From a bacterium (GTDB lineage Bacteria > Patescibacteriota > Microgenomatia > UBA12405): 43,684 nucleotides of DNA. This document shows positions 23,071-34,943 of this stretch, in pieces (positions within the stretch are counted from its first letter, which is position 1; every line of letters begins with the position of its first letter). Where the stretch lies: the NCBI GenBank assembly GCA_029561175.1, contig JAKQJL010000014.1, positions 1 through 43,684 on the forward strand, in the 5' to 3' direction. The notes under the pieces are model-generated. The model was not told the origin of the DNA. It did no database searches and saw only the letters and a program-made list of their open reading frames with translations. The position numbers and the translations under genes are program-made.

Positions 23071-23416
23071 ATGGATGATTTTGAGCAAAATCAATTAAGG
23101 TTAATTGTTTGCCTATTATATTAGCTTTTTTTGAAAGATTTTGTAAGACAACAAATTGAGTATAAATATTTTTTTGGGTAGAAAAAATAATCTTTGTTGA
23201 ATTATCAGAAAATTCAATTTCATTTAAAAATGGACGAAAAACAAGATTTTGATAATTAAAATTTAATTTTGATGAGGTTAATTTAAATATTTGAATTTTT
23301 GAAGAAAAATCTGATGGTTGATTTTTTAAAGTGATTTTAGAGGTGTTTAAATATAGAAATAATTGAATAATAATGATCAATAACGGAAAAACAAAAAGAA
23401 AGTTATACCATTTCAT
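23048..23416 (-). CDS. Minimal FtsQ/DivIB-like protein
   Basis: 122 aa, one TM; tail KIIFSTQKNIYTQFVVLQNLSKKANIIGKQLTLIDFAQNHPYATF resembles the FtsQ beta-domain end; sits in the ftsQ position between murG and ftsA. Confidence 0.65.
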   Translation of the reverse strand: MKWYNFLFVFPLLIIIIQLFLYLNTSKITLKNQPSDFSSKIQIFKLTSSKLNFNYQNLVFRPFLNEIEFSDNSTKIIFSTQKNIYTQFVVLQNLSKKANIIGKQLTLIDFAQNHPYATFKNN

Positions 23417-24464
23417 AAAATAGTTTAAAAAATGGATGAATAGCTGAACTGGGTTTAAAATTTACTTGGTTGTTTACTTTTGATAAACGAAGAATTGAAT
23501 TAACTAATTTAGTAGAAGTGAGCTGATCTTGGTTAATGATAATAATGTTGTTAGGTGATTTGTTTTGTAGCCAGTTGGCATTGAGTTGTTGTTCGTTTTG
23601 TTGACTAAAAGGTAGGGGTATTAAAATAGCTTTTTGATTAAAAGTGAAAATTTCAAAACAAGTGTTGGCACCTGCTCGTCCGATAATTAAGTTGGCATGT
23701 TTAAAAATCCAACCAATATCTTGAGAAGAGATATATTCAGTTTGGTAGTAACGAGAGTGATGATAATTTTGAATGATGTTTTTATTTTTACCAGTTTGAT
23801 GAATGATGGTAAAGTTGGTTAGTTTTGAAAGAGAATTAATCAGATGTTGGTTGATAATCGCCGAACCTTGATTGCCGCCAGTAATATAGATAAGAGGGTA
23901 TTTTTTTATTTGCTTTTGAAGAGGGTTAAAAGTAGATCGGTTGGTTTGATATAGTTGTTGTCTGACTAAATTACCAGTAACTATAGTTTTTGAAGGTGGC
24001 AAATTGTTTTTAGTATCAAAAGAAAGAGCGATTTTATTAACAAACAATGAACAAATTTTGGTGGTTAAGCTAATAGTTAATGTTTGTTCGTGAATAATTG
24101 ATTTAATTTGATTAACTCTTGAAGCGATTATTACAGGAACTGAAACGTAACCTCCAAAAGAAACAACCAGATTTGGCTTAATTTGCCTAATTAAATAAAA
24201 ACTCCTAAAAAAAGAAAATAAAGTTAATGGGATACCTTTAATAGTGTTAAACAAAGAAATTCGATCGAGTTTACCACTGGGTATATTAATAATTTGAATA
24301 TCTTTTTTTTTAAAAACAGGATCGTCAAGATGATTGTCTGAAGAAAATTTATGAGTTAAATAAAAAATTTTCCAAGAAAAATGAGTGTCTTGACGAAGGT
24401 GATTGATTAGTTCAATGGCTGGAGTGTGATGAACTCCGGTGATGATGATGGTTTTGTTGATCAC
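23403..24464 (-). CDS. murG: UDP-GlcNAc:lipid I GlcNAc transferase MurG
   Basis: VVSFGGYVSVPVIIASRV, IIHEQ, ITGGNQGS, IGRAGANTCFE; shortened N-terminal G-loop (IIITGVHHTPA). Confidence 0.9.
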   Translation of the reverse strand: MINKTIIITGVHHTPAIELINHLRQDTHFSWKIFYLTHKFSSDNHLDDPVFKKKDIQIINIPSGKLDRISLFNTIKGIPLTLFSFFRSFYLIRQIKPNLVVSFGGYVSVPVIIASRVNQIKSIIHEQTLTISLTTKICSLFVNKIALSFDTKNNLPPSKTIVTGNLVRQQLYQTNRSTFNPLQKQIKKYPLIYITGGNQGSAIINQHLINSLSKLTNFTIIHQTGKNKNIIQNYHHSRYYQTEYISSQDIGWIFKHANLIIGRAGANTCFEIFTFNQKAILIPLPFSQQNEQQLNANWLQNKSPNNIIIINQDQLTSTKLVNSILRLSKVNNQVNFKPSSAIHPFFKLFYEMV

Positions 24465-25548
24465 TGTTTTTTAAGTATAACAATTGTTGTTGTCGGTGAA
24501 TATTGGCGACAACTCCTAAACCTAAATATAAACTTACTAAAGAAGAACCGCCGTAAGAAATAAAAGGTAGTGGCATTCCGGTTAGAGGAATTATTGAAGT
24601 AATTGCCCCAAGATTAATTAAAGCTTGAAAAGCAATCCAGAGGCTGATTCCGATAGTAAATAGCTGAGTTGAGTGGTCGGTAAGAGTGTTTGAGAAATTA
24701 ATCAGATGACTAACTAAATACAAATAGGCAAGACAGATGATTAACATACCAATAAATCCTGTTTCTTCACCAATAACAGCAGCAATTGAATCAGTAGATA
24801 CTTTAGGTAGAAACATATATTTTTGATCTGAATTAGCGAAACCTTTACCAAAAATATGGCCTGAAGCCAGGCTGACAATTAGCTGGTTGCTGTGGTAAGC
24901 CTGAGTTGATTGTGGGTTGATTAGTGATTGAAGTCTTTTTAGACGGTATGGTGAGGTAATGGTTAAGATAATACCTAAAAATAAGGCAATAACACCGATA
25001 ATAAAAATAGATTTGATATCACCATTGGCTAGATAAAAAAGAAAAATCGAAATTGTGGCAATTAGAATGGTAGTACTTAGGTTTGGTTCGATAATGATTA
25101 AGAAAAGACCAATTACTAAAGGAATAAAAAAGTGTTTTAAATTAACATTTTTAGTGAGAATGTTGGAAAAATAAAGTATTGAAGTAAATTTAAAAAGTTC
25201 TGATGGTTGAACTCCAAAGAAACCAAAATTTAACCATCGATTGGCACCTAAGATTTTTAATCCAAACTGAGGAATGACAACTAAAAAAAGTAAGAAGAGA
25301 GAAAAATAAAATAATATCGGGGAAAATTTTTTAATTAAAGAATAATCAAGATATCGAATAATAAAAAAAATAGAGAGACCGATTAATGACCAGATTAATT
25401 GTTTTTTGGCGATGCCAAAGCTTACTCCAGTTAAGTTGATAGATTCGAATGGTGAGCTGATTGATAAAAATACTAGACCGATAAAATTTAAGAAAAATAA
25501 GTAACCAAAAATGTGCCAAAAGGATATTGGTTTATTGTTTGTGGTCAT
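24412..25548 (-). CDS. ftsW: SEDS lipid II polymerase FtsW
   Basis: GANRWLNFGFFGVQPSELFKF, AAVIGEETGFIGM, IIPLTGMPLPFISYGGSSLVS. Confidence 0.93.
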   Translation of the reverse strand: MTTNNKPISFWHIFGYLFFLNFIGLVFLSISSPFESINLTGVSFGIAKKQLIWSLIGLSIFFIIRYLDYSLIKKFSPILFYFSLFLLFLVVIPQFGLKILGANRWLNFGFFGVQPSELFKFTSILYFSNILTKNVNLKHFFIPLVIGLFLIIIEPNLSTTILIATISIFLFYLANGDIKSIFIIGVIALFLGIILTITSPYRLKRLQSLINPQSTQAYHSNQLIVSLASGHIFGKGFANSDQKYMFLPKVSTDSIAAVIGEETGFIGMLIICLAYLYLVSHLINFSNTLTDHSTQLFTIGISLWIAFQALINLGAITSIIPLTGMPLPFISYGGSSLVSLYLGLGVVANIHRQQQLLYLKNSDQQNHHHHRSSSHSSH

Positions 25549-26653
25549 TTAGCAATTTGTTGATGTAAACCTCAGGAATTTCTTGAAAATTTTCGGGTTG
25601 ATCGACCAATTGATGATCAAAATTATATTGGTAAATAGTGGTTTGTTGTTTGTTTTTAAGATTAAGTTGGGCACCTATTAATTCTTGATTAAACCGTTGA
25701 TTTTCTTGCTGATCAGAAATATTAAAATTATGAGGGATAAATGAAAGAAGATGAAAATAAAAAAGTGGGTTGAGCGATGCTTGAATCTCAAGCTGAGTGT
25801 AAAAACTAAAAGAAGCAGTTAAACGAGGATTGCACTCTAAAAGATAAACTTTATTTTGGTTTACAAAAAAGTCTAAACCAAAAAAACCTCGATAATGATT
25901 TTCTTTTAAGATTTCTCCAAAAGAATTAGTAATTTCAAGAACTTGTGATTTTATAGACGAACTAATATTTGCAGGCCATTGACGGCCAACGGTGGTGAAT
26001 GGATTATCAGTAAGTTTTTTAATACCAGTAAATTGAAGTGCTGGTGGACTTTGAAAAAGATGTGAATCAACTAGACAGCAATTATTTAAAAGAGTGTATC
26101 CTGACAAATAGGGTGAAATTTTAATTGGAGTATTGTCGGGGAGCAGTGGTTGAAAATTTTTAAGAAAAAAAGTTGAATTACCTGCCCAACCAAAGTGACT
26201 TTGAATAACTAGAGGGGTTTGAAATTTTTCAAAAGCTTGATTAATGTTATCAGAGGTAAAGGTGGTAATTAAGTGCGGAATAATTGGGATGTTTTTTAAT
26301 GAACAAATTGTGGGAAATTTAATTTTATCTTCAAAAAAACGATTAAGCTTGCTGGAATTGGCGGCGTAAATCCATTGATATTTTTGACAAATTTTCTCGA
26401 TTTTACCAGATGGTTTAAAAGGAATAATTATATTTTTCTTATTAGTTGAGTTAGCCAAATTTTGAAGATAATCAATTGTTTTTTGGTTTTCTATAAAGAC
26501 CCCTGTATTTTTTAAAGATAAGTTTATTTTTAAAGTTATAGGGGAAATTGAATAGAAGTTTGGTAACTGAGGAAGATTAATATCTAAGAATTGATCCAGA
26601 CAAAGATAGACAAAATTATAAGGTAATGATGAGAGATAACTTAGTAAATTCAT
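25532..26653 (-). CDS. ATP-grasp family ligase of unknown substrate
   Basis: C-terminal FGLDFFVNQNKVYLLECNPRLTASFSF (ATP-grasp metal/ATP-binding ExNPR motif); 17-bp overlap with ftsW, 4-bp overlap with the PLP gene. Confidence 0.75.
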   Translation of the reverse strand: MNLLSYLSSLPYNFVYLCLDQFLDINLPQLPNFYSISPITLKINLSLKNTGVFIENQKTIDYLQNLANSTNKKNIIIPFKPSGKIEKICQKYQWIYAANSSKLNRFFEDKIKFPTICSLKNIPIIPHLITTFTSDNINQAFEKFQTPLVIQSHFGWAGNSTFFLKNFQPLLPDNTPIKISPYLSGYTLLNNCCLVDSHLFQSPPALQFTGIKKLTDNPFTTVGRQWPANISSSIKSQVLEITNSFGEILKENHYRGFFGLDFFVNQNKVYLLECNPRLTASFSFYTQLEIQASLNPLFYFHLLSFIPHNFNISDQQENQRFNQELIGAQLNLKNKQQTTIYQYNFDHQLVDQPENFQEIPEVYINKLLNDHKQ

Positions 26654-27450
26654 CTTTTAATGCCAGTAACAATTATTAATGGATAATCTCCGATATTAAG
26701 TGATTGGCTAACTTTCTTAAGGCCTGCTAAGGCTAACCCGGCTTCTGGAGAAACAAAAAGCTGATTATCAAGTAGTTCTTGATAACAGGATTTAACTTCA
26801 GAATCGTTAACCACAACTCCCCCACCATGATTTTTTAAGAGAGAAATAATTTTTTGTTTATTGGGAAGTAACTTTACAGATAAAGCATCGGTAATGGTTT
26901 TCATTTCAGAAGTGTAATCTTGATCAAAATAACTACAAATTGGACAAGAAGATGCCGGTTGGACACCAAAAAGTTTGATATTTTTGGGAAGATTTTTTGA
27001 TATTCCTAATAGAGTGGTGCCACTGCCGATAGGTAAAAAAATACTAGTTACTTGAGGTAGTTGAGTTAAAATGTCGATGGTTATCTTCTGGTAACCGATT
27101 TGAGCGTTGGGATCGGTGGATTGGCGAAGAAAAAAAGCCTGGTTTTGTTTGGCGTATTTAAAAGCTGAACTATTAGGTTGAGTTGTTTTAGTAACTTGAG
27201 ATTTAATCAAACTTAGTTTTGAAGCTGAAATATGAGGAGATACAAAAACCTGAAGTTCTAAATTTAATTGACGGCAAAAATAATCTGCTGAAATAGCGGC
27301 ATTTCCTGAAGAAGCAATTACGAATTTTTGGTAACCGAGTTTAATAGCTTGATTGATTTGAAAAGGGATGGCACGATCTTTGGCAGAGCCAGTAATATTT
27401 TGATCTTCGCGAAGATAATAAATATTTTTTATTTTGGTAATTGGAATCAT
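26650..27450 (-). CDS. PLP-dependent fold-type-II enzyme (threonine synthase/cysteine synthase/Ser-Thr dehydratase-racemase superfamily)
   Basis: REDQNITGSAKDRA (PLP lysine), IASSGNAAIS, LPIGSGTTLLG; 266 aa, compact. Confidence 0.82.
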   Translation of the reverse strand: MIPITKIKNIYYLREDQNITGSAKDRAIPFQINQAIKLGYQKFVIASSGNAAISADYFCRQLNLELQVFVSPHISASKLSLIKSQVTKTTQPNSSAFKYAKQNQAFFLRQSTDPNAQIGYQKITIDILTQLPQVTSIFLPIGSGTTLLGISKNLPKNIKLFGVQPASSCPICSYFDQDYTSEMKTITDALSVKLLPNKQKIISLLKNHGGGVVVNDSEVKSCYQELLDNQLFVSPEAGLALAGLKKVSQSLNIGDYPLIIVTGIKR

Positions 27451-27487: not shown

Positions 27488-27643
27488 ATGGAAACAAAAA
27501 TTCTTTGTCCCGATTGTCAAACAGAAATAAAATTTGAAAAAATCGAGGTTGGTGATATTTTAGAATGTGATGAGTGTGGTACTGAAGTAGAAATTATTTC
27601 AGTTGAACCATTGAAGTACACTTTATTGGTTGAGGAGAAGTAG
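27488..27643 (+). CDS. LysW-like amino-carrier/zinc-ribbon small protein (51 aa)
   Basis: Own translation: METKILCPDCQTEIKFEKIEVGDILECDECGTEVEIISVEPLKYTLLVEEK; CPxC...CDxCG layout, acidic, LysW-like spacing; absent from the ORF track (under 60 aa). Confidence 0.8.
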   Translation: METKILCPDCQTEIKFEKIEVGDILECDECGTEVEIISVEPLKYTLLVEEK

Positions 27644-28180
27644 TCGGAAAAAGCCTTCTTTAAATTGTTCTTGATCTTGATTGATGTCGATTTGGCCGTA
27701 ATGAACTCCATGATTACTTAAACTGCTGTGGACATAGATTATTTGTTGATCAATTTTTTCAATAACAAATAAAACGTGATGACCTCGTTTTTGGCGGATT
27801 AAGTCTCCTGTTTTAACATCATTAATGTTAACTTTTTTTGATAAAGGAGAAGACGTGAGCATGTTAGCGTTTGTTCTTCGAACATTCAGTTGGGCATCGA
27901 AATAAAAATTTAACAACTGACAACATAGACCTGAACAATCAATTCCTAAATGATGTTTCTTTTGAAAGCGATAAATTTGATTTGAATCTAGTTCGAGTAT
28001 TTTTACTCCTTCTTGGTTGGCCAATTCGACTGTTTTTAGAGCAATTTCTTTGGCGTTTCCTTTACCTACCAAAGAAGCTTCTGGAGAACTGTTTTTATGT
28101 TTACCGGTATTCATAAAGTAAGGAATACCAATATACTTTGAAATTTCTTGTTTTAGTTCGGTTAATTTAATCCCAGCCAT
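27623..28180 (-). CDS. NlpC/P60-like cysteine peptidase
   Basis: LGIDCSGLCCQLLNFYF, TGDLIRQKRGHHVLFVIEK; likely Met start at 28180 (ORF track start 28216 overlaps mraY). Confidence 0.82.
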   Translation of the reverse strand: MAGIKLTELKQEISKYIGIPYFMNTGKHKNSSPEASLVGKGNAKEIALKTVELANQEGVKILELDSNQIYRFQKKHHLGIDCSGLCCQLLNFYFDAQLNVRRTNANMLTSSPLSKKVNINDVKTGDLIRQKRGHHVLFVIEKIDQQIIYVHSSLSNHGVHYGQIDINQDQEQFKEGFFRLLLLNQ

Positions 28181-29196
28181 AGACCTAAAATTGCTAATAT
28201 AAAACCAGCCAACCAAGCTCTAAAGACAATTTTTGGTTCTTCCCAACCATTTCTTTGAAGAGTTAGATGGATTGGAGCAGCTGGGAAAATTTTTCGATGT
28301 AAATAGAGTTTTGAAAAGATTTGAATAGCACTGCTTAAGCCTTCGATAATAAAAATGAATCCAACCACAAGTAAGGGAATTAGTTTTCCTAAAAGAATCG
28401 CAATTAAGGCAAAAGTGGCACCAAAAGACATTGATCCCACATCACCTAACCAAATTCGAGCTGGATAAACATTGAAATATAAAAAAGCAATTAGTGCACC
28501 AATCCATAAGGCTAAAAACAAAGAAATAGGAGTGTCGAGCTGGTTGCTTGAGAGTACCCAAAAAGCAAAAAGTGAAATCATTAAAGTTCCGCAAGATAGA
28601 CCATCAAGACCATCGGTAATATTAAAAAAATTAGCAAAACCGACAATAATTGTGGTAAAAATGGGGATAGAAAATAATCCCAAAGAGACTGGACCCAAAA
28701 AAGGTAGATAGACAAAATTTATACCTAATCGAAAATAAATATGAGCTGAAACTATACCGGCAATTACGAACTGCAAGAGTAGCTTGTGTTTCATTCTTAA
28801 TCCAAAAAAACCAGATTTTTCAAAATTAAAGAATTTTAAAGCATCATCGTATAAACCCAGTAATCCAAAACTGATAAAGGTGAAAAAGATGGCTTCAACT
28901 TCTCGTTGAATTTGAAAGTTATGAGAAATAAAAATATTTGATTGCTGAAGAATAAAAAAAAGAATTGTAAAAAGAACTGTGACTGACACAATAATTAATA
29001 AGCCACCTCCCACTGGTGTACCGGCTTTAATCGCGTGATATTTATCAAAAATCGGAGTTCTTTTGTTTTGAAAATCAAGAGTTTTTTGCTTTTGGCGTTG
29101 GAATTTAAGATGATAGAGAATGTTAATAAAAGGAACAACCAAGACACTGGTGCAAATGAAAGAAAAAAGAAGCAGGCCAAGATAAAATTGGATCAT
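28162..29196 (-). CDS. mraY: Phospho-N-acetylmuramoyl-pentapeptide transferase
   Basis: GTPVGGGLLI, NITDGLDGLSCG, WLGDVGSMSFGA, NGWEEPKIVFRAW. Confidence 0.92.
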   Translation of the reverse strand: MIQFYLGLLLFSFICTSVLVVPFINILYHLKFQRQKQKTLDFQNKRTPIFDKYHAIKAGTPVGGGLLIIVSVTVLFTILFFILQQSNIFISHNFQIQREVEAIFFTFISFGLLGLYDDALKFFNFEKSGFFGLRMKHKLLLQFVIAGIVSAHIYFRLGINFVYLPFLGPVSLGLFSIPIFTTIIVGFANFFNITDGLDGLSCGTLMISLFAFWVLSSNQLDTPISLFLALWIGALIAFLYFNVYPARIWLGDVGSMSFGATFALIAILLGKLIPLLVVGFIFIIEGLSSAIQIFSKLYLHRKIFPAAPIHLTLQRNGWEEPKIVFRAWLAGFILAILGLWLGLN

Positions 29197-29212: not shown

Positions 29213-30523
29213 TTAAATTTTAGTAAAAGTCGAGATTATACGGTTTAGAGTGTCTAAACCCTTTTTACCTCCGGAACTAAAATGGACCAAAATGTCTTGA
29301 GGTTTAAGATTGTTTTGGTAATAGTCAATTATTTGTTGGTAATCTGGCAGGTAAGTTATTTTTTTACCTAATTCTAGGTGATAATCTTGAAAAGTAGTTC
29401 TTTGGTCAACAGAAACTGATGGGGAAAATTTTATTTTACTAATAGTTATTTGGGATGCGTTTTTAAACGCCTGATTAAAACCAATTATCGAATTTTTATT
29501 TTGTAAAAAGGAAGCGTGAGGTTCAAAAAAAACTTTAATTTGGTGAGTGGGATATTGATAGTGAATTGCTTCTAAGGCTGAGGCAATTCGATCTTTAGAT
29601 TGAGCAAAATCGTCGATAAAAATAATATTATTAATGATTTTTTTGATTTCTAATCTGCGCTTAATACCACGGTAATGATTTAAAGCTGATTGAATGATTT
29701 TTGGTTTAATTCCTAAGGCGATGGCCATAGTAGTGGCTGCCATAACGTTTTCCTGATTGTGTTTACCAACTAAACAAGAATTAAAAGAAAAATTAAAATT
29801 ATAAGGAAGAGCCTGTGAGTAATTCTTAGAAATTTCTGTGGCTGATGGAGAATTTGGGTTATAAACTAAAATGCCATTTTTAGGTAATCGATTGATAAGT
29901 TTAATAAATGATTGTTTGTTTGAGCTTTGGGAAGGATAGGATTCTTTATGTTCCCAGTCGGCTGAAGTTAATAATAAATGGGTTAGCGGGTAATAATGAA
30001 ATTTTGCTTGAGTATCGAGACCATTAATAGATTCATCGGCTTCAATAATTGAATAGTCCCCAGTACTAGTGGTTAAAGAGGGAAGATGATTAATAAAACT
30101 GGCACCAACCATATAACTAGGGTTGAGTTTGGCATATTTAAAAATCCAGATTAATAATGAGGTGATGGTTGATTTTCCATAAGATCCAGCGACTAAAATG
30201 TTGATTTTTTTATCTAAAAGCTGACTTAGGTACTCAGTGGCGGATATATAAGGATAGTGGTTTTTAGTAATTAAAGCGAATTCTTCTTGACATTTGGTAA
30301 ATGATTTAAACGAAGAACCGATAATAAATAGGTCAATTTTTTGATAATCTATGACTTTATTAACAGGAATTTTGGATTTTAAAAGAATGGTGCTTATAGG
30401 AGGATAAATTTGATCTTGATCTGATCCAGATATTTGGTGGCCAAGTCGAGTTAATTCTAAAGCTAAAGGTGTGGTCATGTTGCCAGCGATTCCTAAAATA
30501 TGAATTCTCATAATTGTTGCCAA
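29213..30523 (-). CDS. Mur ligase, Mpl/MurC-like
   Basis: IHILGIAGNMTTPLALELTRLGHQISGSDQDQIYPPISTIL (Mpl/MurC Rossmann), P-loop VAGSYGKSTI, IIEADE; only MurC-type ligase in the window. Confidence 0.85.
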   Translation of the reverse strand: MATIMRIHILGIAGNMTTPLALELTRLGHQISGSDQDQIYPPISTILLKSKIPVNKVIDYQKIDLFIIGSSFKSFTKCQEEFALITKNHYPYISATEYLSQLLDKKINILVAGSYGKSTITSLLIWIFKYAKLNPSYMVGASFINHLPSLTTSTGDYSIIEADESINGLDTQAKFHYYPLTHLLLTSADWEHKESYPSQSSNKQSFIKLINRLPKNGILVYNPNSPSATEISKNYSQALPYNFNFSFNSCLVGKHNQENVMAATTMAIALGIKPKIIQSALNHYRGIKRRLEIKKIINNIIFIDDFAQSKDRIASALEAIHYQYPTHQIKVFFEPHASFLQNKNSIIGFNQAFKNASQITISKIKFSPSVSVDQRTTFQDYHLELGKKITYLPDYQQIIDYYQNNLKPQDILVHFSSGGKKGLDTLNRIISTFTKI

Positions 30524-31098
30524 TGATTATTTTGATAATATTCAAAACCAGGAAGGTTTCTTTTGTAATAACCGATTTTTTTATCAAGATCGAATCTACC
30601 CAAATAACAAAAATCTAAATTATTATTGGCACTATCAATGATTGTTTCAATTACCATTCTGATGGGTAAATCCTGATGAGCAAAATCTGGATTATAAAAA
30701 ACATAGGCAATATGGGAAAATTTTTGATGATAATAGCAAATGGCATAGCCAACTATTTGATCTTTAAGTTTCCAAATAAAAAGTTGATTAAAAATATGGT
30801 GATTAAAGATATATTTAACAGAACTAATTGGAAAATCCCAGCCTAAATTTTTAATCCAATGATGAATAGTTTTTTGAGTAGACAAATCGAAGGAAAAATC
30901 TGCCAAATTTATTTTTTCAAAAGAAAAATCAGTGGTTTTTCTAATGATGCGACGATTTTCAGAAGAAAGAGTAAATTGTGAGAGATTAGATCGACAACTT
31001 GATTCTTGATAGAAGAGTTGACGATCGTTACGTTGAGGTAGTAATCCTTGCTGGTATAAAGATTGATAATCTTGAGTTGCGAGAATATTGAATGTCAT
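30508..31098 (-). CDS. Arginyl/leucyl-tRNA-protein transferase (ATE/Bpt)-like GNAT-fold protein
   Basis: SSENRRIIRKTTDFSF, IAYVFYNPDFAHQDLPIRMVIETI, LDFCYLGRFDLDKKIGYYKRNLPGFEYYQNNHWQ resemble the ATE/Bpt core and C-terminal pattern; overlaps murE and the Mpl-like gene. Confidence 0.62.
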   Translation of the reverse strand: MTFNILATQDYQSLYQQGLLPQRNDRQLFYQESSCRSNLSQFTLSSENRRIIRKTTDFSFEKINLADFSFDLSTQKTIHHWIKNLGWDFPISSVKYIFNHHIFNQLFIWKLKDQIVGYAICYYHQKFSHIAYVFYNPDFAHQDLPIRMVIETIIDSANNNLDFCYLGRFDLDKKIGYYKRNLPGFEYYQNNHWQQL

Positions 31099-32339
31099 TG
31101 ATTTAATTTTAATCTAAAAGCAGTTCTAAAAGCTTCGGCATCTGACCAGGGGTATTCAGTATTACCCAATAAAATAGTAGTTTCGTGGCCTTTACCGCAA
31201 GCAACAATAGTATCGTGAGGTTTAGCAAGACTAATTGCTTGGTTAAAAGCTTCTTGACGGTTGGGGACATTATAATAAGAAAAGAGTTGTTTTTTAACTT
31301 TTGATTGATTGATACCATTGATTATCTGTTGGTTTATATCTTCAATTTTTTCATTTCGAGTATCATCAGAGGTAATGAAAGCGATGTTTGACAATTCGGA
31401 AACTACTTCTCCCATTAAGGGTCTTTTTGATTGATCCCGGCCACCGGTAGCGCCAAAAATAACAATTAATCTACCTGAAGTAGTTTCTCTTAATGATAAT
31501 AAAGTTTGTTTTAATGCTGCTGGAGTATGAGCAAAATCAACAATAGTTCTAATATTTAGATCGTTTTCAATATTTTGTCGACGACCTTTTGTTTCTGGAA
31601 ATTCAAGAATATTTTTGGCAACTAATTGATGATCAATATTTAGATCAGTTAACAAAGAATAGGCTGCCAGAATATTGTAAGCTTGATATTGATATGGAGA
31701 ATTGGTGATTATTTGTTTTTGATTAACTAAAAAACTTAGAGATTTTGGGGTTATTTTAAGATTTTTAGCTTGGAAATCTGATTTGGTATTAAGACTATAG
31801 GAAATTAATTTTTTAGAATCAAAAATGGATTTAATGGTTTTGGCAGAAGAATCGTCTTGATTAAAAATAATTTTGGAAGAATTTTTTAATAGTTTTAATT
31901 TGGCTTCTAAGTATTCTTTTTGAGAGGGAAAATCATCTAAATGTTCATGAGATAAATTGGTAAAAATTCCATAATTAAATTTAAACCCAAAAAATCGAAA
32001 TTGATCGAGACCGTGTGCGGTGGTTTCAATAACGGCATATTTTTTACCTTCTTTTTTCATTTTAATAAGAATAGGAAGGAGGTTCTTGGGATGAGGAGAA
32101 GTGGTGTGTAATCCGGGGCTATTGATGGTGTTAATTGAAAAAGATGGAAAACCAAGACGATTTAATAATTCATCAATGAGAACGGTGGTGGTGGTTTTAC
32201 CATCAGTTCCAGTGACGCCAATTAAGAAAAAATGACGTTGAGGAAAGCCATAACGAAGAGAATAAAATAGGCTATTTGGTAAATGCCAACAGTAATTCTT
32301 TATTTTTTGGAAAAGGTATTTAATCCAAATATTAGGCAT
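31095..32339 (-). CDS. murE: MurE-type Mur ligase (short N-terminus)
   Basis: GVTGTDGKTTTTVLIDELL, ETTAHGLDQFRF, NLSHEHLDDF, VDFAHTPAALKQTL, GATGGRDQSKRPLMG. Confidence 0.9.
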   Translation of the reverse strand: MPNIWIKYLFQKIKNYCWHLPNSLFYSLRYGFPQRHFFLIGVTGTDGKTTTTVLIDELLNRLGFPSFSINTINSPGLHTTSPHPKNLLPILIKMKKEGKKYAVIETTAHGLDQFRFFGFKFNYGIFTNLSHEHLDDFPSQKEYLEAKLKLLKNSSKIIFNQDDSSAKTIKSIFDSKKLISYSLNTKSDFQAKNLKITPKSLSFLVNQKQIITNSPYQYQAYNILAAYSLLTDLNIDHQLVAKNILEFPETKGRRQNIENDLNIRTIVDFAHTPAALKQTLLSLRETTSGRLIVIFGATGGRDQSKRPLMGEVVSELSNIAFITSDDTRNEKIEDINQQIINGINQSKVKKQLFSYYNVPNRQEAFNQAISLAKPHDTIVACGKGHETTILLGNTEYPWSDAEAFRTAFRLKLNQ

Positions 32340-32345
32340 ATTTTA

Positions 32346-33869
32346 TTATATCAGATTTGAAATTATTGATGCCAGGTCAAACCAAATTGGGGCAGCGGTA
32401 CTAGAACCCCAAGGAGAAGATTTGGGGTTGTCAACAGTGACGACCATGGTTGCTTTTGGCTGATTACAGGGAAAAAATCCAATATATGAAGCCATAGTTT
32501 GATTGTTGGTGTAATTACCACCAAGGGCAACCTGTGCAGTACCTGATTTTCCACAAGCTTCAAAATTTTTTGATTTAAATTGAGCCACTGCTCCCTCTTC
32601 AACTCCGTATTTTAAAATTTCTTTTAAAGACTCAGTGGTTTTAGAAGAAAAAATCGGAAGATTGTTGGTTTTAATTTGAGTTGATAAATGTGGAGTGACT
32701 AAATAACCATTATTAGCTAAAGTGTTGAAGGTTCGGATTAATTGAATTTGAGTTAAAGCGAATCCTTGACCAAAAGAGGCTGTAGCTAAATCAATTGGAG
32801 ACCAATATTTTTTTTCAATTGGTCTTGATTCACCGGGAAGATCAATGCCGCTTTTTTGGTTGATTTCTAATTTGTCAAAATATTGCAAAAAATTATCTTT
32901 TCCAATAAGTTTGATAATTTCACTCATTGAAATATTATCAGAGTATTTAATAGTATCTTTTAAATTGGCGTGAGGGTGAAAAGTATTATCCCAGTTAGAG
33001 ATTTGGTTGTCTCCTATTTGATAAGGTTGTGAACATTGGGTGCACTGATAATTTAGATCAATAGCTTTTGATTCTAAGCCTATGGCAATGGTAATTGGTT
33101 TGAAAACTGATCCTGGTTCAAAAAGATAACTATGCTCTCGGTTGGTGGCGGTAATTCCTGAAGGTGTGGCTTCAAAGCTAGCCATAGCAATAATTTCTCC
33201 GTTTGAAGGATTTAAAATGATAGCCGAAACGGCATCGGCTTGATATTTAGTTAAACCAGTTTTTAAAGATTTTTCTAAGATAGATTGAATGGTTTTGTTT
33301 AAAGTAACTTTAAGATCTTGTCCTGAATTTGCTTTTGACTGAAGGTTGGTGATTAAGCTGCGATTTAGAGCATCTTTCTTTTCCCAAGTATATTTGGTTT
33401 TACCAGCAAGGAAATTTTGATAATAGTTTTCTAAACCATTAATAATTGGAATGGCTAATTGGTTTGGGTAGAATCTGGTGAACTTTGTTTCCCAAATGAA
33501 CCCTTTTTCTTGATTGTTAAGATAGAAATTATAGTCAAAATGATCTTTGAGAGTAATCCATTTCTGTTTGGGGTTATTAATAAAAGAATCGAGGTTGGGA
33601 AATTTAGTTTTTAAAGATTCAAGGTCTTTAATCTCTGGTTTATATAGTGAAAGTTGATAGTATAATTCATTTCCAGCCAGTAAACTGTTATCTTGAAAAT
33701 AAATATTACCTTTTTGTCCGGTTTTAATTGAAGGCTTAATTAATTGATTTGTGGCTTGAAGATTAATAGCGTCGAACTTGATAATTTGCCAATAGAACAT
33801 TCTAAAGATAATGGCAAAAAAACAAACGACGATAGTTACTTTAACTGATTTAATTCTTAAGGGTGGCAT
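32346..33869 (-). CDS. ftsI: Class B penicillin-binding protein (FtsI/PBP2-like)
   Basis: SxxK in LFEPGSVFKPIT, SDN (YSDNISM), KSGTAQVALGG. Confidence 0.92.
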   Translation of the reverse strand: MPPLRIKSVKVTIVVCFFAIIFRMFYWQIIKFDAINLQATNQLIKPSIKTGQKGNIYFQDNSLLAGNELYYQLSLYKPEIKDLESLKTKFPNLDSFINNPKQKWITLKDHFDYNFYLNNQEKGFIWETKFTRFYPNQLAIPIINGLENYYQNFLAGKTKYTWEKKDALNRSLITNLQSKANSGQDLKVTLNKTIQSILEKSLKTGLTKYQADAVSAIILNPSNGEIIAMASFEATPSGITATNREHSYLFEPGSVFKPITIAIGLESKAIDLNYQCTQCSQPYQIGDNQISNWDNTFHPHANLKDTIKYSDNISMSEIIKLIGKDNFLQYFDKLEINQKSGIDLPGESRPIEKKYWSPIDLATASFGQGFALTQIQLIRTFNTLANNGYLVTPHLSTQIKTNNLPIFSSKTTESLKEILKYGVEEGAVAQFKSKNFEACGKSGTAQVALGGNYTNNQTMASYIGFFPCNQPKATMVVTVDNPKSSPWGSSTAAPIWFDLASIISNLI

Positions 33870-34077
33870 TGATTGGTTTTAAATTTGTGTTTTTTGGTTG
33901 ATTCAAAAGTTCCGATTCTTTTAATAAGTTTTGAAGTTCATGGTTTAGTTTAGAGTATTGAGAAGATAAATCCTTGTAATATTGGTCAATAATAGCGATT
34001 TTATTTGAATAATAGATAGAAAAGATTAACTGAAAAACGATGGTAAAAAAACAAATAAAATAATAGAGACGAATCAT
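33850..34077 (-). CDS. FtsL/DivIC-like bitopic protein
   Basis: 75 aa, TM followed by coiled-coil-like helix, located between rsmH and ftsI. Confidence 0.65.
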   Translation of the reverse strand: MIRLYYFICFFTIVFQLIFSIYYSNKIAIIDQYYKDLSSQYSKLNHELQNLLKESELLNQPKNTNLKPINATLKN

Positions 34078-34943
34078 GATTCTATTATTTCATATCCACG
34101 TAGAATTGCCGAGCGCGAAGGAGGATTGATTTTTATCTCAGAAAATGAAGGTTTAATTGGTTTAATAAGAAGATTCTTTACTTTGGATTGGTTAATAAAG
34201 TTTTTTACAATTCGATCTTCCCCAGAATGAAAAGTAATAATGGCAATTTTTGTTAAAGGCTGAAGCTTGAGAGTTGATATTAGAGCTTGTTTTAAGTTTT
34301 GGTATTCTTGATTAACTTCAATTCTTAAGGCCATAAAAACTTTGGTGGCTGGGTGAATTTCTGAACGACGATGATTGTTTTGGTAAGTATTTTTAATAAT
34401 TTCAGCTAACCTAGAGGCTGAAGTAATTGGTTTTTGTTGTCGCTGATGAATAATATCTTTGGCTATTTGAACTGATAATAATTCTTGAGAATAATAAGAG
34501 AATAGTTCTACTAATTGTGATTGATCATAAGTATTAACTATTTCTTGGGCAGTTAAAGATGTGTTTGGATTTAATCTCATATCTAAAAGATCATCTTTGA
34601 AAGAAAAACCAAGATTATAATTAAGAATTTGATTAGTACTTAAGCCTAAGTCAAAAAGAATGCCGTTGATGGGTTGATTAATTTGGGAAGATATATTTTC
34701 AAGTTGATTGAAATTAGATAATAAAGGATGAAATTTAGTGGAAAGATTTGACTCTGAGATTCTTTGAGTAGCTGTTTCTAAGTTTTGTTGATTGGTGTCA
34801 ATCCCCCAAACAATAGATCCGTGTTTAAGCAATTCAAGAGTGTGACCACCATTACCAAGAGTGGCGTCGATAAAAACTTGATCTTTTTGAGGTTGAAAAA
34901 AATCAATTACTTCCGAAAGTAAGACTGGATAATGATAATTCAT
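34074..34943 (-). CDS. rsmH: 16S rRNA (cytosine-1402-N4) methyltransferase
   Basis: HYPVLLSEVIDFF, VFIDATLGNGGHTLELL, FSFKDDLLDMRLNP, FHSGEDRIVKNF. Confidence 0.96.
   Translation of the reverse strand: MNYHYPVLLSEVIDFFQPQKDQVFIDATLGNGGHTLELLKHGSIVWGIDTNQQNLETATQRISESNLSTKFHPLLSNFNQLENISSQINQPINGILFDLGLSTNQILNYNLGFSFKDDLLDMRLNPNTSLTAQEIVNTYDQSQLVELFSYYSQELLSVQIAKDIIHQRQQKPITSASRLAEIIKNTYQNNHRRSEIHPATKVFMALRIEVNQEYQNLKQALISTLKLQPLTKIAIITFHSGEDRIVKNFINQSKVKNLLIKPIKPSFSEIKINPPSRSAILRGYEIIES

Follow-up and report, generated by a model that had tools for sequence, protein, structure and literature searches.

A putative ATE-derived aminoacyl-tRNA transferase in a cell wall gene cluster of Patescibacteria and its possible substitution for MurD

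Genes and gene order at the locus

The window analysed here, a stretch of 43,684 nucleotides, comes from a draft genome of Ca. Shapirobacteria, Patescibacteria (0.70 Mb, 83% complete), in which it is contig C7. The nearest relatives of this genome are other Ca. Shapirobacteria/Microgenomates/Patescibacteria. It encodes a series of cell wall genes, all on the reverse strand (Table 1), in which a gene for a protein resembling arginyltransferase (ATE) is placed between those for a MurE-like and an Mpl-like Mur ligase. The initial annotation gave the ATE-like gene a 4-bp overlap with murE, which is correct, and a 16-bp overlap with the Mpl-like gene, which proved to be an artefact of the upstream TTG. 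When the ATG at 30511 is used (MRIHILGIAGN...), which is the same start as in the orthologues, the second overlap is also of 4 bp (ATGA). The operon proposed for these genes is borne out by the two 4-bp overlaps and by the order murE-ATE-mpl, found on one strand in all 30 loci examined in the family and the order.

Table 1. Features of the cell wall gene cluster, with positions in the window
Feature	Position	Strand	Remarks
MurG	23403..24464	-	PF04101/PF03033
FtsW	24412..25548	-	PF01098, E 1.3e-78
ATP-grasp enzyme	25532..26653	-	373 aa; PF02655 over cut-off; model pLDDT 95.2
Fold-type-II PLP enzyme (PALP, threonine-synthase-like)	26650..27450	-	PF00291, E 6.6e-39
NlpC/P60 peptidase	27623..28216	-	PF00877; no evident signal peptide
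MraY	28162..29196	-	PF00953, E 1.9e-29; conserved place beside the Mpl-like and ATE-like genes
Mpl-like Mur ligase	29213..30511	-	ATG at 30511; listed ORF start is the upstream TTG at 30523
ATE-like aminoacyl-tRNA transferase	30508..31098	-	196 aa, ATG start
MurE-like ligase	31095..32339	-	TIGR01085, 296 bits, over cut-off; 4-bp overlap with the ATE-like gene
Penicillin-binding protein (transpeptidase)	32346..33869	-	PF00905, E 8.6e-58; upstream, same cluster
RsmH/MraW-like methyltransferase	34074..34943	-	upstream end of the dcw-type cluster; assigned by position and sequence; order kept in relatives

A search of contigs with the single protein as the query returned no loci, and with an alignment as the query it returned 32. 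Within the family, 29 of 34 genomes have the ATE-like gene, which also occurs elsewhere in the order; of 381 additional genomes taken from across the phylum, 24 carry it. The window genome has a single copy. The relatives carry a dcw-type cluster in the order RsmH-PBP-MurE-ATE-Mpl-(MurA)-MraY-NlpC/P60-PALP-ATP-grasp-FtsW-MurG-FtsQ-FtsA. In most of them the Mpl-like gene and MraY are separated by a MurA-like gene of about 442 aa; the window genome (28162-29213) and the loci L037 and L046 have no such gene there. The corresponding stretch in G048, a canonical sibling from the same class, carries MurB, MurA, Ddl, Alr, MurF, MraY, MurI and MurD. G048 also encodes a 666-aa ORF (L150, 13903-15903, minus strand) that consists of an N-terminal nucleotidyltransferase-like (GlmU-like) part and MurC.

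The ATE-like protein, the Mpl-like ligase, the fold-type-II PLP enzyme, the ATP-grasp enzyme and the NlpC/P60 peptidase form a conserved module together with MraY. Other classes have it as a compact stand-alone cluster of ATP-grasp, NlpC/P60, MraY, ATE, Mpl-like and PALP genes (L111, L113, L114, L117, L119, L122 and L124), and the ATE-like and Mpl-like genes are apart in several families. Members of the module are also found fused, i.e. ATE with Mpl as an ORF of 688 aa (L112, from a genome assembled in one contig), Mpl with NlpC/P60 (L116), and ATP-grasp with NlpC/P60 (L122). The NlpC/P60 proteins of the window, L116, L122 and L173 look cytosolic and travel with the module. A second aminoacyl-tRNA-type GNAT protein (LPG_synthase_C) is encoded between the ATE-like and Mpl-like genes of G289 (L124, 9035-9841, plus strand).

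Nearly every genome with the ATE-like gene has strong matches to the profiles of the module-type ATP-grasp and PALP enzymes. The only genomes with such matches and no ATE-like gene are G011, G035 and G140. The contigs of G011 and G035 end before the ATE/Mpl slot, and the operon of G140 reads ATP-grasp-PALP-MurD-NlpC, with MurD in the slot occupied elsewhere by the ATE-like and Mpl genes. The NlpC/P60 protein of G140 carries a dipeptidyl-peptidase SH3 domain. A fold search with the structure model of the ATP-grasp enzyme returned generic biotin-carboxylase/PurK matches only.

Sequence family and predicted fold of the ATE-like protein

Both motifs quoted in the initial annotation are present in the 196-aa translation, and the resemblance to ATE claimed there is real. 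The window protein scores 20.3 bits against ATE_C of Pfam (PF04377), which is below the cut-off of 25, and about 32 bits (E 1e-7) against the NCBIfam arginyltransferase models, whose cut-off is 205. In a phylum-wide set of 28 family members, ATE_C matched 27, and the NCBIfam arginyltransferase models reached E values down to 7.7e-17 with no other NCBIfam family matching. FemAB is absent from the Pfam and NCBIfam matches of the protein and of its family. The conserved motifs are G-x4-R, SSENRR, YLG, YK and W. The family alignment has no invariant or near-invariant Cys, and hence the zinc motif of ATE1 (PMC10115844) is missing.

A sequence-profile search against the PDB gave only weak matches to ATE1 (E 0.18-0.45), and none with a wider alignment, so that a comparison of folds was needed. 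We predicted the structure as a single 196-aa domain with a mean pLDDT of 96.7 and a pTM of 0.92. The best Foldseek match of the model is ATE1 (E 1.9e-8, with TMq 0.74 for the human protein and 0.75-0.76 for KlAte1), followed by MprF/A-PGS, FemX (E 5.2e-7), streptothricin-type aminoacyl-tRNA peptide synthases (Sbb17) and LFTR, all of which use aminoacyl-tRNA. The alignment shows the YLG...YK...W signature, and the fold of the model is that of GNAT proteins of the C-terminal ATE type. Structure prediction had been set beforehand as the check on the proposed GNAT-like aminoacyl-transferase fold, and it gave no unrelated fold, with ATE1 ranked first. Among GNAT proteins it falls in the branch of the aminoacyl-tRNA transferases, with arginyltransferase as its closest relative.

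MurD and the ligase in the MurC slot

We compared the Mur genes of 78 genomes. MurD was found over the model cut-off in none of the 49 genomes with the ATE-like gene and in 24 of the 29 genomes without it. The Fisher p value for this exclusion is 1.5e-15, not corrected for phylogeny, and overstates the evidence, since the MraY tree has about three changes between the ATE-like and MurD states and only 2-3 independent pairs. The exclusion is thus largely inherited and reflects about 2-3 independent switches, too few for significance once descent is allowed for. Neither gene was found in five genomes: the assemblies of G011 and G035 have a gap at the slot, those of G046 and G053 yielded almost no Mur genes, and the fifth is G410. 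The last genome is 100% complete and has no MurD, ATE-like, PALP or ATP-grasp gene, yet its Mpl-like ligase (L155, 9539-10939, minus strand) falls in the ATE clade and shows the remodelled pocket. G410 possibly has a third solution or a very diverged transferase.

The genomes with the ATE-like gene mostly keep MurB, MurE, MurF, Ddl and MraY in addition to the ligase in the MurC slot, and MurF occurs together with Ddl at G000:C36. We rejected the loss of MurB as a part of the swap, as MurB is present in 70 of the 78 genomes. A replacement of Ddl by the ATP-grasp enzyme is not our main idea either, because most (though not all) ATE-like genomes keep Ddl; D-Ala-D-Ala ligase (PF07478) was not found in the complete genomes G213 and G289. 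At least G213 does have MurF-like ligases, and the terminus of the stem in these two genomes may also be unusual. A MurI-type racemase is encoded in 8 of the 49 ATE-like genomes versus 12 of the 24 MurD genomes, and residue 2 of the stem may therefore not be D-Glu where the ATE-like gene occurs. Alr is missing in many genomes both with and without this gene.

The Mpl-like ligase is the only MurC-type ligase found in the window assembly. It is below the NCBIfam cut-offs of both the Mpl model TIGR01081 (153.6 bits, cut-off 388.7) and the murC model (186.3 bits, cut-off 335.1). Its best match among solved structures is 3hn7, the murein peptide ligase Mpl of Psychrobacter arcticus, a recycling enzyme that accepts L-Ala-D-Glu, slowly (PMC3060825). 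When 49 ligases are placed in a tree, the 31 from ATE-like genomes all group with that of G410 in one clade (support 100/99), to which E. coli Mpl is the closest of the named proteins (94/72). The Mpl-type loop is present in 31 of these 31 ligases and also in some ligases of MurD genomes. The residues of MurC that bind L-Ala lie in the motifs DY[AG]HHP and QPH-x-x-x-R (PMC3060825). Almost all ligases of the MurD genomes keep DY[AG]HHP and QPH-x-x-[ST]R, whereas in 31 of 31 ligases of the ATE-like genomes the second His of the former has become Ser or Thr and the latter is remodelled. This suggests that the amine substrate of the Mpl-like ligase differs from that of MurC, with the residues mapped by motif rather than by structure.

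A possible tRNA-dependent start of the stem peptide

The steps from MurC to MurF are regarded as a near-universal bacterial pathway and as a drug target. Positions 1 and 2 of the standard stem peptide are L-Ala and D-Glu, and MurD joins the carboxyl of residue 1 to the amine of residue 2 (Glu) by ATP activation. In the ATE reaction, an N-terminal Glu or Asp receives on its alpha-amine the carboxyl of an L-amino acid carried by tRNA (PMC10115844). Our preferred reading, to which we give a probability of roughly 55%, is that the ATE-like protein descends from ATE, transfers an amino acid from tRNA in the assembly of peptidoglycan precursors and, paired with the Mpl-like ligase, replaces MurC and MurD. 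A role of the ATE-like protein in the wall peptide is well supported, while the substrates, the acceptor, the dipeptide intermediate, the order of the steps and the roles of the PLP, ATP-grasp and NlpC/P60 enzymes are set out below as we infer them.

The ATE-like protein would take residue 1 of the stem, probably L-Ala or some other small L-amino acid, from its charged tRNA and would join it to the alpha-amine of a free residue 2 (D-Glu or a relative). The product would be a dipeptide, or something longer where the acceptor had already been extended. The bond for which MurD uses ATP would instead be drawn from the tRNA ester, before attachment to the sugar. A peptide formed at that stage calls for a ligase that loads a peptide, and not L-Ala, on UDP-MurNAc; the Mpl-like ligase could do this with ATP by coupling the peptide to the lactyl carboxylate, after which MurE and then MurF would act as usual. 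The PLP enzyme may supply an amino acid or D-amino acid, and both it and the ATP-grasp enzyme may act on the acceptor, to prepare or to modify it. Peptide trimming or salvage may fall to the cytosolic NlpC/P60 peptidase. A dipeptide made from aminoacyl-tRNA would account together for why MurD was lost, why an Mpl-type ligase with an altered pocket fills the MurC slot, and why ATE is found fused to Mpl. We see about even odds for this pathway in full, i.e. a stem that starts as a tRNA-made peptide, a dipeptide loaded by the Mpl-like ligase, MurC and MurD bypassed, and position 2 possibly not D-Glu. The source of D-residues where MurI and Alr are both missing is outside what the model explains, and so is G410. 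Against the reading stand G410, the largely inherited exclusion of MurD, the families whose ATE-like and Mpl-like genes are apart, the scarcity of MurI, and the ATP-grasp enzyme, which could in principle carry out the chemistry of MurD itself.

The annotation of the sequence family as arginyltransferase would fit an N-degron arginyl- or leucyl-transferase that lies in a wall operon by chance. We consider this very improbable, as the gene is linked to Mur genes across the phylum and even fused to a Mur ligase, and the invariant Cys and zinc motif of ATE1 are missing from a protein with a single gene copy in its genome. ClpS, for which the initial annotation had proposed a check, was found in none of the 78 genomes by a search that was positive in E. 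coli, used as a control, and others. The peptidoglycan role that had been suggested instead of an N-degron role agrees with this absence, with the fixed murE-ATE-mpl operon and with the fusion.

Two other wall functions deserve attention. The ATE-like protein shares its fold with FemX and might, as FemX and MurM do, add an L-amino acid from tRNA to a side-chain amine of the stem for the cross-bridge, with the ATP-grasp enzyme as the substitute for MurD that adds a PLP-made residue 2. ATP-grasp enzymes are known carboxylate-amine ligases in wall peptides (PMC2922099), and the ATP-grasp/PALP pair tracks the ATE-like gene. But in G140 the pair stands beside MurD, so that it is no mere stand-in for MurD, the fusion with Mpl places the ATE-like protein at the first ligation rather than at a step after MurE, and an Mpl-like ligase with a remodelled pocket in the MurC slot is left unexplained, which makes this function unlikely in our view. 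Alternatively, the de novo making of residue 2 may have been abandoned for salvage, in which NlpC/P60 trims imported murein peptides of a host, the ATE-like protein restores the N-terminal residue and Mpl reloads UDP-MurNAc. The recycling role of Mpl (PMC3060825), the fusion of NlpC/P60 to the Mpl-like ligase, the SH3 domain in G140 and the mostly missing MurI all speak for it. However, the de novo enzymes MurB, MurE and usually MurF and Ddl are kept and the module lies inside an essential dcw-type cluster, so that we judge salvage improbable. Our preferred reading has the ATE-like protein replace MurD in a module with the Mpl-like, PLP, ATP-grasp and NlpC/P60 enzymes, which argues for assembly of the stem peptide more than for a cross-bridge of the Fem/MurM type.

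A large uncultured group appears to have exchanged a Mur ligase for a tRNA-dependent enzyme that descends from the protein-tagging ATE. If true, translation would be linked to the stem peptide itself and not only to cross-bridges, the missing murD in Patescibacteria genomes would be explained, and a gene otherwise annotated as an N-degron enzyme would gain a concrete function. Our search of the literature, which preprints and subscription papers may have escaped, returned no ATE-like gene or MurD loss in Patescibacteria and no tRNA-dependent stand-in for MurD, and a demonstration of the reaction would make the pathway a new one.

The use of aminoacyl-tRNA for cross-bridges (Fem/MurM) and by ATE for N-degrons is known (PMC2922099). 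Among known systems ATE1/Bpt (PF04377; PRK01305 models) is the best match in sequence and fold and has the S-x-x-x-RR and YLG...YK...W signatures in common with the ATE-like protein, which differs in its shorter N-terminal part, its lack of an invariant Cys, its scores far below the cut-offs, and its context of Mur genes and no ClpS. FemX/FemAB/MurM belong to the same aminoacyl-tRNA-using GNAT branch, and action on wall precursors is proposed for the ATE-like protein too; it has one GNAT domain instead of two, is closer to ATE by sequence, and its proposed acceptor is the residue at position 2 rather than a side-chain amine. The Mpl-like ligase is like Mpl in its best solved-structure match, its loop and its nearest clade, but it is the sole MurC-type ligase of its genome and has HSP/QS/QT instead of HHP in the motifs of the amine pocket. 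In Xanthomonas, MurD2/MurL, a MurD variant with an epimerase, place residue 2 in an alternative way (PMC8788868), and like the case presented here they are an alternative to the canonical MurD. MurD2 remains a Mur ligase that depends on ATP, with the epimerase acting after it, whereas the genomes with the ATE-like gene have no MurD homologue over the cut-off and would use a tRNA-dependent enzyme in its place.
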